From Clostridia bacterium (GTDB taxonomy: Bacteria; Bacillota; Clostridia; Christensenellales; RUG350): 40,712 nt of DNA. The position numbers were made by a program, and so were the translations under genes. The notes beneath the pieces are model-generated. The model was not told the DNA's origin. It did no database searches and was given only the letters and a program-made list of their open reading frames with translations. The stretch lies in assembly GCA_017407285.1 (NCBI GenBank), contig JAFQWW010000058.1, forward strand, positions 1 to 40,712, in the 5' to 3' direction. This document shows, piece by piece, positions 2,518-6,391 of this stretch (positions are counted from its first letter, which is position 1; each line of letters begins with the position of its first letter).

Positions 2518-2835
2518 ACCCAATTATATTCTGTCCTTAATGAATAAATAACCGTAATAAATATAACTAACTTAAGTATATATATTATATACAATAAAAT
2601 ATAGGGTAAAAAACGAGTGCGGAATCTAATTATCCATAAGCAGACGACTAATATTGTCAGAAACTGACCTATAAAGGTGAAAATGTAAAACTTTTTACCA
2701 AATTCTTAAAAAAGCTATTGACACAAAATGAAAAATTGTATATAATCATAATGTATTATCGGCTAATTTGTCGAACGATACGAAATAAAATCCATTCGAC
2801 TTATGTCGGAAATATGATTTTGGAGGTTGTTCATT
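2518..2835. other. AT-rich regulatory intergenic region
   Basis: 318 bp between two divergent genes. The left half is very AT-rich with no clear feature. The right half holds two inverted repeats (2656-2668 GTCAG/CTGAC, and 2676-2699 GGTGAAAA/TTTTTACC, one mismatch), then a consensus promoter at 2718-2746. In the predicted leader, GTCGAA (2770-2775) and TTCGAC (2795-2800) could pair. No ORF with a credible ribosome binding site was seen before 2836. Confidence 0.6.
2718..2746 (+). promoter_or_regulatory. Consensus promoter for the secreted-protein unit
   Basis: TTGACA (2718-2723), exactly 17 nt, TATAAT (2741-2746): a perfect sigma-A type match. The start is predicted near 2753, giving a leader of about 83 nt before the peptide gene. 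Confidence 0.9.
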
Positions 2836-2988
2836 ATGAAAATTTACGAGAAACCTATGCTCAGTGTTATGAGTTTGGTTCAGAGTGAGACCGTAGCAGC
2901 AGATCCTTGGGGATCTTTTGCAGACGATTTGTCACAGTTGGGTGGCTCTATCACGTCTTATGAGTACGGCTCAGGTGTGCAGATTTAA
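2836..2988 (+). CDS. 50-residue peptide, function unknown
   Basis: A small ORF with a strong TGGAGG ribosome binding site 9 nt upstream and a consensus promoter further up. The peptide starts MKIYEKPMLSVMSLVQSE and ends SYEYGSGVQI. The K-x-Y-x-K-P-x-L-x-V opening resembles many tiny uncharacterised peptides of gut Clostridia and Bacteroidetes (recollection, not a search). The second half is rich in Gly, Ser and Asp and has no Cys. No hydrophobic segment long enough for a membrane span and no modification enzyme nearby. The next gene starts 12 nt after the stop behind AAGGAGG, so the two are almost certainly co-transcribed. It could be a secreted or RiPP-like peptide, a partner of the secreted protein, or a translated leader; the sequence does not decide. 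Confidence 0.75.
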   Translation: MKIYEKPMLSVMSLVQSETVAADPWGSFADDLSQLGGSITSYEYGSGVQI

Positions 2989-3000
2989 GGAGGGGCTAAG

Positions 3001-4998
3001 ATGAAAAAGATTTCTAAAATTGTTCTTGTATTAGCTGCTCTTTGCATGGTATTCAGCGCTTTCGCAGTAGTTGCTAGCGCAGAAAACACTGCATCTATGG
3101 CTGCTGATGCATATTTCGGCGAATATACTACTGCTAATCACAGTGGTGCCGCAAATATCTTCTTTGGTACTGTAAACACTGACGCTACCGAGTATGGTGT
3201 TATCATCACTCCCGAAGGCGCAGCTAATTCCCTTATCTTCCCCGGTCTTGTTAAAGGCGAAGACGGAAAATTCGGTGTTGCTATCTACGATATGCCCGAA
3301 GGACTCTACAGTGTAGCTATCTATTCTGGTGACATCGCTAACGCAGGTGCACAGTCTGAGTACGCTGTAAGCGCAGGTAAAAACTTCTATGCAAACAAAG
3401 GTCTTCAGGTTAAAGTTACCTTGGATTGGAACGGCGCGCGTAACCACGAACAGTGGTACATCTACGCTGCAGCTGGTGACAAGATCACTGCTCCCGATGC
3501 AACTGTTGAAGGTATCGTTCTTCCCGGTGAATTAGACGGTTGGTACAAAGCTGACGACACCGAGTTCGATTTCGAAAACGACGTTGTTACCGAAGACATT
3601 ACCTTGAAGGCTCAATGGATCGCAGACGACATATCCGAGAAAGTATACGACGCTTACACTACCGCTTCTGGTAAGATGAGCTTCGGTACCTCTGTTCCTG
3701 CAGATATCTCTGACGGTTCTACCTTGAACATTGAGTTCGACGTTATCGCAGCTAATATGCCTAAAGCTAACTACAACTTCTACGTAATGCTCGGATATGA
3801 TAACAACCACTACAACCAGTCTGGTCGTTTCTTCACCTTCCAGTACGCTAACTGGGCATATTTCGATCCGTGGCCCGGTCACTACTTGACTCAGAACAAT
3901 AAGAACAATGTAGGCGTTGACAACGGTACTGGTTGGGATCCCACCCAGATGATCGTTAAAGATCAGAGCGTTAAGTTCTCTTACACCGCTCCTACCGCAG
4001 AGACCACTGGTTCTTTGTACGTTTACGTAAAACATATGGCTCAGTCCGATAGCGAATACGTTTTGCTTGCTGACACTACCAATTTGACCTTGGATAACGT
4101 TCAGGACACCTCTAGAGTATTTATGGGACTTTGTCTTGATGAAAACGCTGGTGCTCGTGGCTGGACCTTCACTGGTTACAGATCTTGGGTAGATAGAGTA
4201 GGCGGTGGCGTAGAGGAAAACTACGGTTTCAACTCCGCTACTAACGGTGATGCAGACGTTGTTGAGAACACTGAAATTGAAGTTCCCACTTTCGTAACTT
4301 GGGAAGAAGGCAAACTCTTAAATATCCGCGCTAACACCGATGCATCTGTTGATTCAAACGGTTCCTTCCAGATGTGGTATGGTAACATGCAGGGTGTAGA
4401 TCTTGCTCCTGGTGAGACCTTGACTTGGGAATTCACCGTTGACTCCGTTGAGTACGGTTTGTGGTACAACGTTTGGGGTGGAGTATCCGTCGTTTCCGGC
4501 GTATTCCCCACTAGCGTACCTCAGTCCTACGGTAAGACCGTTGGTTTCTACGGAAACTTCGCATTAGACACCGGTTCTTACGACGGTCGTTACGCTACTA
4601 TCTGTGGTGACACCAACTACAACGAGTACTGTGAGCTTGAAGAAGGTTACTCCAACTTCGACCCCTACACCGATGGTTGTAACTACGGTGGCGAGGCTTT
4701 GAATATTAAGATCGAGTACACCGCTCCCGATTTCGATAACATGATCGACGGTAGCCTCGTATACTACAAGAAAGTTGCATCTAGCGAAGATTGGATCAAA
4801 GTTACCTCCGTTCTCTATCCTGATTTGACCGACGATCTCCATATCGTTATTTGGTACAATTCTGGTCAGAACGCAGGTGGTGCATGGGATTTCATCATGT
4901 CTGATTACAAGATGTACACCTCTGAAGGTCAAGACTTGAATAGAGTTATCTCCGTAGGTGGTATCGGTCAGGTTCAAGAATACGTTCCTGCTGAATAA
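3001..4998 (+). CDS. Secreted protein with InlB-type repeat and duplicated domain
   Basis: A 665-residue exported protein. Residues 1-27 form a Sec signal peptide (KK, hydrophobic core, cleavage expected after VASA). Residues about 139-207 match the Listeria-Bacteroides (Flg_new/InlB B) repeat: LDWNGA opening, DGWYKADDTEFDF centre, ITLKAQWI end. The rest appears to be two related beta-rich domains, roughly 210-405 and 430-655, each with a YTAP motif (Y328, Y573), a G-S-L-x-x-Y-x-K strand and a closing aromatic strand; they resemble carbohydrate-binding jelly rolls but I cannot assign a family. No LPXTG motif, C-terminal membrane anchor or catalytic motif is seen. Strong C-ending bias in Phe, Tyr, Asn and Asp codons, like the ribosomal genes here, suggests high expression. 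It follows the 50-residue peptide gene. Confidence 0.93.
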   Translation: MKKISKIVLVLAALCMVFSAFAVVASAENTASMAADAYFGEYTTANHSGAANIFFGTVNTDATEYGVIITPEGAANSLIFPGLVKGEDGKFGVAIYDMPEGLYSVAIYSGDIANAGAQSEYAVSAGKNFYANKGLQVKVTLDWNGARNHEQWYIYAAAGDKITAPDATVEGIVLPGELDGWYKADDTEFDFENDVVTEDITLKAQWIADDISEKVYDAYTTASGKMSFGTSVPADISDGSTLNIEFDVIAANMPKANYNFYVMLGYDNNHYNQSGRFFTFQYANWAYFDPWPGHYLTQNNKNNVGVDNGTGWDPTQMIVKDQSVKFSYTAPTAETTGSLYVYVKHMAQSDSEYVLLADTTNLTLDNVQDTSRVFMGLCLDENAGARGWTFTGYRSWVDRVGGGVEENYGFNSATNGDADVVENTEIEVPTFVTWEEGKLLNIRANTDASVDSNGSFQMWYGNMQGVDLAPGETLTWEFTVDSVEYGLWYNVWGGVSVVSGVFPTSVPQSYGKTVGFYGNFALDTGSYDGRYATICGDTNYNEYCELEEGYSNFDPYTDGCNYGGEALNIKIEYTAPDFDNMIDGSLVYYKKVASSEDWIKVTSVLYPDLTDDLHIVIWYNSGQNAGGAWDFIMSDYKMYTSEGQDLNRVISVGGIGQVQEYVPAE

Positions 4999-5020
4999 TC
5001 TTAGTTAATTGACTAATTAA

Positions 5021-5052
5021 AAGAGTGGTTCTTTTTGAACCACTCTTTTTTT
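5021..5052 (+). terminator. Terminator of the secreted-protein unit
   Basis: An 11-bp perfect stem (5021-5031 with 5037-5047), a 5-nt T loop and a T-run on the plus strand. It starts 23 bp after the stop codon. Confidence 0.93.
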
Positions 5053-5197: not shown

Positions 5198-6391
5198 ATG
5201 AGTCGCATGATTGGTACTGTATCACGTGGCGTACGCGCTCCCATCATCAGAGAAGGGGACGATATCATTGATATCGTTACCACCTCCGTATTAGATGCGT
5301 CCAAAGACGACGGTTTCAAATTCCGCGATCGCGATATCGTGGCTATGACCGAGGCTATCGTTGCACGCGCACAAGGCAATTACGCATCGGTTGACGATAT
5401 TGCAACCGACGTTAGAGCAAAGTTTGGCGGAAATACGGTAGGCGTTATTTTCCCTATTTTGAGCCGTAACCGTTTTGCTATATGTCTAAGAGGTATAGCA
5501 AAAGGTGCAAAGAAAATAGTTTTGATGCTCTCTTACCCCTCCGATGAGGTTGGTAACCATTTAGTGAGCCTTGATACCTTGGACGAAAAAGGAGTAAATC
5601 CCTATAGTGACGTTTTGTCCTTGGCTAAATATCGTGAACTTTTTGGATATGAAAAGCATAGATTTACGGGTATTGATTACGTTGAGTACTACGAAAACCT
5701 CATTCGTGAGTGTGGGGCAGAATGTGAAATAGTTTTTGCAAACAACCCTCGCGCTATTTTGGACTACACCAAAAACGTTTTAACTTGTGATATACATACT
5801 CGCGCACGTACCAAACGTATCTTAAAGTCCGCTGGTGCTAATATCGTTTTAGGTCTTGACGAGATTATGAATCATTCTATAAACGGTAGCGGTTATAACG
5901 CAGACTACGGTTTGTTAGGTTCAAATAAAGCAAACGAAGATAGAGTTAAACTCTTCCCTAGAGATTGTCAACCCATTGTTGATGCGATCCAAGCACGCTT
6001 GTTTGAAGCTACTGGAAAACACATAGAGGTTATGGTTTACGGTGACGGTGCGTTCAAAGATCCCGTAGGAAAGATTTGGGAACTTGCCGATCCCGTTGTT
6101 TCTCCTGCATACACTGACGGTTTGGAGGGCACTCCCAACGAGTTGAAACTCAAATATTTAGCAGATAACGAGTTTTCCAACCTCTCTGGTGACGAACTCA
6201 AAAATGCAATCAAAGAAAAGATTCACGCAAAAGACGGTAACCTCGTTGGTAAAATGGCATCTGAAGGAACTACTCCTCGTAGACTTACCGACTTAATAGG
6301 TTCTTTGTGCGACCTAACCTCAGGTTCGGGCGACAAAGGAACGCCGATAGTGTTTATTCAGGGGTATTTTGATAATTACACCGCTGAGTAA
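5198..6391 (+). CDS. Coenzyme F420-0:L-glutamate ligase family protein
   Basis: A 397-residue protein resembling the CofE/FbiB family, whose archaeal and actinobacterial members add glutamate to coenzyme F420-0 using GTP. The N-terminal part (IREGDDIIDIVTTSVLDA, then FKFRDRDIVAMTEAIVAR) follows the family's opening, and the repeated metal and nucleotide-loop regions appear as GDGAFKDPVGKIWELADP. Clostridia often carry this longer single-domain form although they are not known to make F420, so the real substrate is uncertain. The start was moved from 5153 to ATG 5198 because AAAGGAG lies 9 nt upstream. It is monocistronic, with its own promoter and a terminator-like palindrome after it. Its stop codon lies inside a 19-bp inverted repeat. 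Confidence 0.8.
   Translation: MSRMIGTVSRGVRAPIIREGDDIIDIVTTSVLDASKDDGFKFRDRDIVAMTEAIVARAQGNYASVDDIATDVRAKFGGNTVGVIFPILSRNRFAICLRGIAKGAKKIVLMLSYPSDEVGNHLVSLDTLDEKGVNPYSDVLSLAKYRELFGYEKHRFTGIDYVEYYENLIRECGAECEIVFANNPRAILDYTKNVLTCDIHTRARTKRILKSAGANIVLGLDEIMNHSINGSGYNADYGLLGSNKANEDRVKLFPRDCQPIVDAIQARLFEATGKHIEVMVYGDGAFKDPVGKIWELADPVVSPAYTDGLEGTPNELKLKYLADNEFSNLSGDELKNAIKEKIHAKDGNLVGKMASEGTTPRRLTDLIGSLCDLTSGSGDKGTPIVFIQGYFDNYTAE

Follow-up and report, generated by a model that had tools for sequence, protein, structure and literature searches.

The 40,712-nucleotide stretch of Clostridia bacterium DNA analysed here (hereafter the window) carries a 50-residue peptide gene directly upstream of the gene for a 665-amino-acid secreted protein, and there is good support for a real, translated and selected peptide family that is coupled to secreted proteins sharing an N-terminal module (the N-module). 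Judged from its paralogues and their pattern of substitution, the peptide is a real gene with a real function, and is multi-copy rather than a one-off. On sequence evidence, the peptide ORF is co-transcribed and translationally coupled with the secreted N-module gene.

Organization of the two-gene unit

The following features were identified in the window.

2718..2746, forward strand: sigma-70 type promoter, TTGACA-17-TATAAT (12/12 consensus matches)
2821..2826, forward strand: Shine-Dalgarno sequence TGGAGG of the peptide gene (read in the sequence)
2836..2988, forward strand: gene for the 50-residue peptide MKIYEKPMLSVMSLVQSETVAADPWGSFADDLSQLGGSITSYEYGSGVQI (translation; paralogues; purifying selection)
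2836..2901, forward strand: leader-like part of the peptide, residues 1-22 (YxKPxL ... ExxA), variable between copies (alignment; pN 0.28-0.31)
2902..2985, forward strand: core-like part, residues 23-50, DPWGSFADDLSQLGGSITSYEYGSGVQI (14 : 0 synonymous to nonsynonymous changes relative to C24)
2987..2993, forward strand: Shine-Dalgarno sequence AAGGAGG of the secreted gene (read in the sequence; overlaps the peptide stop codon)
3001..4998, forward strand: gene for the 665-aa secreted protein (without a significant match in Pfam or NCBIfam; codon adaptation index 0.805)
3001..3378, forward strand: N-module, a signal peptide and ~100 residues of a domain that is probably beta-rich (present in 12 proteins and one divergent protein of this genome)
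5019..5049, forward strand: intrinsic terminator closing the two-gene unit (13-bp stem, then a T-rich tail)

The perfect promoter described in the earlier note was recovered at 2718-2746, and is the sole 12/12 match between positions 2520 and 5180. Promoters could furthermore be recognized at paralogous loci on contigs C35 (11/12), C24 and C12 (both 10/12), while the C85 locus is without a clear promoter. The peptide ORF extends from the ATG at 2836 through 50 codons to a TAA stop codon at 2986-2988, and is followed by 12 nt to the ATG of the secreted gene at 3001. The tiny ORF with its TGGAGG, the 12-nt gap, the AAGGAGG and the 665-residue ORF previously reported are thus all in place, and the coupling of the two genes is, as read at this junction, tighter than had been stated, with AAGGAGG overlapping the TAA stop codon. 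A similar overlap is found in the C24, C85 and C12 copies. The promoter, peptide gene, secreted gene and terminator together look like a bicistronic transcript, because the strong terminator at 5019-5049 closes the unit downstream of the secreted gene.

The ribosomal-like codon bias previously attributed to the secreted gene holds. Its codon adaptation index of 0.805 approaches that of the best genes in the small reference set, of which a ribosomal gene scores 0.819. The other window genes outside this set have indices of 0.39-0.75, and the peptide gene (0.555) is not codon-optimised. An Rfam search of the window gave no match.

The peptide family and selection on its two parts

Searching the genome's own assembly (G000; 1.19 Mb, 84% complete) with the peptide located it in six places, namely the window (contig C28), C24, C85, C12, C35 and C33. 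Five of these are full-length, one of them interrupted by a nonsense codon, and the C33 copy is a decayed remnant. The translated products are MKIYEKPMLSVMSLVQSETVAADPWGSFADDLSQLGGSITSYEYGSGVQI (C28), MKSYIKPELNVLSVLSSESIAADPWGSFADDLSQLGGSITSYEYGSGVQI (C24), MNVYEKPQIVVIALLQNESIADAPWGSFADDLEQLGGSITSYEYGSGVLL (C85), MKHYEKPTMDTTTVVQLETVAASPWGSFADSLDELGGAITSY followed by a stop codon (C12) and MKHYEKPTLTRVGVMQKENVASIWDVFTGVLPNVISNIGNGDNITSYPWNSGQEI (C35). In the C12 copy (L004:1501-1659), an in-frame TAG at codon 43 ends the peptide ~30 nt short of its natural end, with the frame remaining open to the old end, reflecting either a recent nonsense change or a sequencing error. A Phd/Doc-like toxin-antitoxin pair (L009:3679-4328), recognized by eye, is located upstream of this copy. 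The C33 copy (L010, near 5290-5370) has lost its middle and is out of frame, apparently through an internal deletion, and now precedes the gene of a lipoprotein that lacks the N-module. Pfam, NCBIfam and PDB profiles gave no significant match to the peptide. The earlier note had seen no modification enzyme or exporter adjacent to the window peptide, and this extends to all six copies, none being encoded within a few kb among the ORFs judged by eye.

Drift in the peptide is mainly confined to the leader (MKxYxKPxL...ExxA), in which M1, Y4, K6, P7, E18 and A21 are invariant and for which the pN of 0.28-0.31 was measured against the two intact close paralogues. The C-terminal end is almost unchanged, with the residues conserved across the aligned copies extending almost to the stop codon. 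Between the C28 and C24 copies, the changes in the 28-residue core are 14 in number and all synonymous (synonymous proportion: 0.71; p about 1.5e-9 under neutrality), compared to about 11 synonymous and 15 nonsynonymous changes in the leader (core versus leader: p = 3e-4). The peptide thus shows the excess of synonymous over nonsynonymous change by which a translated, selected small protein is recognized. This indicates that the ORF is translated and that its C-terminal half, approximately 28 strongly constrained residues, is the functional part. Given the 14 : 0 ratio in the core, neither a spacer role nor mechanical coupling by itself can fully account for the ORF.

The N-module and its secreted partners

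The 665-aa protein begins with a typical signal peptide, recognized by eye, and its first 126 residues constitute the N-module, which is present in 12 proteins of the genome and in one divergent lipoprotein. No significant match to the N-module was obtained with Pfam, NCBIfam or PDB profiles. Its secondary structure is strand-rich, in low-confidence models only; the single-sequence AlphaFold2 models (pLDDT: 35 for the whole protein, 52 for the N-module) are both too poor to use, and a Foldseek search with the N-module model returned no significant match.

All five full-length peptides are encoded directly 5′ of an N-module gene. Assuming independent placement and ~1100 genes, the chance of all five lying beside the 13 N-module genes is about 1e-10. 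The previous suggestion that the peptide and the secreted protein belong together is therefore borne out at five loci, but the partner is better described as the N-module than as this particular 665-aa protein or InlB repeats. Whether homologues always precede an InlB-repeat or similar secreted protein was a check set by the earlier note; all five do precede secreted proteins, but the C-terminal parts of these differ and the shared element is the N-module. Behind it, the C35 protein carries LRR, Big_2 and Flg_new domains, the C85 protein a cohesin-like region below the cut-off, and the C28 and C12 proteins unclassified sequence, while the C24 protein has a metallophosphoesterase-like beginning that is cut by the contig end. 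A full Metallophos domain is found in the C68 protein, the N-module sister of C24. The C24 secreted gene departs from its homology to C68 ~150 nt before the contig end (L002:2540-2687), at either an inserted element or an assembly join. The Flg_new repeat following the N-module of the C35 paralogue, and a similar stretch seen by eye in the window protein, resemble the InlB B-repeat/List_Bact_rpt secreted proteins of Clostridia. However, what the peptide-linked proteins have in common is the N-module, for which no significant Pfam match was obtained.

At least 13 secreted protein or lipoprotein genes in this ~1.2 Mb genome carry the N-module, with several products exceeding 1000 aa, and its partners include LRR, tyrosine phosphatase, metallophosphoesterase, cohesin-like and other domains (C22, C75, C16, C51, C35, C24 and C68). 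On contig C22 (L034:2465-3824), a separate RiPP-like cassette is located just upstream of an N-module gene. It encodes a radical SAM protein and, behind it, a Cys-rich peptide of 64 aa, and ends in a strong terminator. The best matches of this radical SAM protein are PapB ranthipeptide and CXXX-repeat maturases, below their cut-offs. The pair was rejected as a second peptide type, as the terminator and a promoter-like site separate it from the N-module gene.

The peptide is absent from eight of the 13 N-module genes. In the weakly resolved N-module tree, the genes with a peptide are not grouped into one clade but pair with peptide-less genes, arguing against a simple duplication in one block without loss or gain. 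This scattered presence and the eight peptide-less genes further show that the peptide is not obligatory.

Leader similarity and the search for processing and export machinery

In lasso and LPP leaders, YxxP is the motif to which RRE domains bind (PMC13381572), and it is contained in the invariant leader residues of this family. YxKP is found in all five copies, two of which also have a Thr near the cleavage site, while the NCBIfam lasso_leader_L3 model matched one paralogue only (13.3 bits; cut-off: 19). As in the YxxP-leader RiPP precursors, the short, precursor-like peptide combines an N-terminal YxKPxL and a hydrophobic leader with a distinct C-terminal part. In contrast to them, it has no biosynthetic cluster and no detectable PqqD, B2 or C proteins, its core is conserved rather than variable, and it is coupled to a secreted-protein gene. 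In typical RiPP families, it is the leader that is better conserved than the core, a pattern that this family reverses.

A weakly similar leader, YEKPEMKFVALRNQDAVANKCWG, heads a Cys-containing small protein in a genome from another family of the order (G275), and resembles the window leader and the first core residues as far as the W-G residues. It belongs to a SynChlorMet-like cassette (L066:4095-7336, contig C45) that encodes PqqD, a radical SAM protein and a small precursor with a YEKP leader, as well as a ScmC-like protein and an S24/signal-peptidase-like protein. The match (E 0.0024 per genome) is near chance for a search of 396 genomes, and is suggestive through its position, at the start of a small ORF inside a RiPP-like cassette. 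The similarity is weak, the remainder of the Cys-containing peptide is unrelated and, unlike the window peptide, it has enzymes adjacent to it.

In the 84% complete genome, the B2 lasso protease family (PF13471) had no match at E<=1, and neither had the RRE/PqqD-like family (PF05402), a model that divergent RREs escape. RREs are divergent and are often missed by PF05402. Asn_synthase (PF00733) matched only in part, over 38 and 49 residues; one of these matches narrowly passed the cut-off, and they are probably other ATPases. The C39 peptidase (PF03412) gave only sub-threshold fragments. The absence of these enzymes, which is an absence from family searches, weakens the RiPP reading of the peptide, but no more than that, because the genome is incomplete and RREs are divergent. 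It agrees with the earlier view that a standard RiPP cluster is not shown, as neither lasso nor double-glycine machinery was found in this 84% complete genome.

The LSQLGG in the middle of the peptide is reminiscent of the double-glycine leader peptides exported by C39 ABC transporters. However, the hydrophobic spacing fits only if cleavage follows GS/GA, the C35 paralogue is without GG, and the LSxxELxxIxGG motif is absent from this paralogue and shifted in register in the other copies. With the motif missing from the C35 copy and no C39 domain over threshold, this candidate was rejected. On present tests, the peptide belongs to neither the lasso nor the double-glycine class.

Distribution of the system

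The peptide profile was run on 81 and then 396 genomes of the order, the leader profile on 297 genomes of the order and 398 of the phylum, and the N-module profile on 297 of the order. Outside its own genome, these profiles gave only leader-type or borderline matches. The peptide core was not found in the 396 genomes of the order, nor was the N-module clearly found in the 297, where the few borderline matches extend over no more than part of the domain or the signal-peptide end. A relative of the same family (G002) encodes the same leader on a different, 49-residue peptide, which forms its own transcription unit and does not precede an N-module gene. Scans of genome contigs, viral contigs, plasmids and phages revealed no peptide/N-module system, and no described equivalent was found in the open-access literature. 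As the peptide core and N-module are absent from the order genomes and the other collections searched, the system appears, as far as the data go, to be lineage-specific and confined to its own genome.

Proposed role of the peptide

The single most likely mechanism, which we put forward tentatively and at less than even probability, is that of a lineage-specific, leader-directed precursor peptide which is co-produced and acts with the secreted N-module proteins. The peptide would be a ribosomally made precursor whose YxKPxL leader belongs to the type recognized by RRE (PqqD-like) domains, and residues 1 to about 22 may guide it to a protein for processing or export whose gene is located at another site in the genome. 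After release or modification, the conserved core would work at the cell surface, together with or upon the N-module of the protein translated from the shared mRNA. That the core is identical across loci suggests one common trans-acting enzyme, exporter or receptor. The 5/5 linkage, the 14 : 0 core, the leader invariants, YxxP, the weak lasso_leader_L3 match and the L066 likeness were counted for this mechanism. Against it were counted the lack of PqqD, B2 and C39 and of any adjacent enzyme, the reversed leader and core conservation, the 8/13 N-module genes without a peptide and the near-chance level of the L066 leader similarity. Rather unlikely is a lineage-specific two-part surface system, in which the near-invariant core of this leader-directed peptide, modified or not, would serve the N-module of several secreted proteins outside the cell as a dedicated ribosomal peptide ligand.

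A regulatory leader peptide and a dedicated chaperone are both serious rivals. In the former, possible although not probable, translation of the small ORF would open or reload the overlapping Shine-Dalgarno sequence, possibly by sensing through, or stalling of, the nascent peptide at its conserved C-terminus. The stop codon does overlap the downstream Shine-Dalgarno sequence in four copies, good promoters precede four of the five units, and residue conservation runs almost to the stop codon. However, pure coupling requires no amino acid conservation, and yet the core shows 14 synonymous changes to none nonsynonymous. RNA folding of the junction between the two genes furthermore indicates that sequestration of the Shine-Dalgarno sequence is inconsistent between loci (P unpaired 0.20-0.48), eight N-module genes dispense with the peptide, and the C12 ORF is cut short by ~30 nt, at codon 43.

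It is doubtful that the peptide is an unmodified intracellular partner which, like a small dedicated chaperone, would bind the N-module ahead of Sec export, while this is still nascent or unfolded. A conserved core, the lack of a signal peptide and the strict linkage to genes with an N-module are consistent with such a partner. However, most N-module proteins are without a peptide of their own, although supply in trans is possible, the lipoprotein encoded after the C33 remnant does not carry the module, and the structural models are of low confidence only.

The one nonsense-codon copy and the one decayed copy could point to a passenger of operon duplication, copied along with N-module genes as their family expanded, now being lost and lacking any function tied to the secreted protein. 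This is improbable given a core that is near-saturated with synonymous change between two copies yet has zero amino acid change, and peptide-bearing genes that are not a clade on the, albeit poorly resolved, N-module tree. A lasso peptide precursor with an A-to-D9 ring (ADPWGSFAD) is largely refuted and very improbable, since the YxxP leader and the Asp read in four copies at a distance of nine residues from a putative cleavage site are offset by B2 protease and PqqD families without a match, only partial Asn_synthase fragments, no cluster at any copy and a C35 copy without the ring residue.

Short peptides with YxxP leaders but without neighbouring enzymes are easily dismissed as noise. Here, a multi-copy family, a conserved core and a reproducible secreted partner provide a testable link between an orphan precursor-like peptide and surface proteins. 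Should the peptide act on the N-module, this would offer a route to pairing peptide products with secreted proteins outside the classic clusters.
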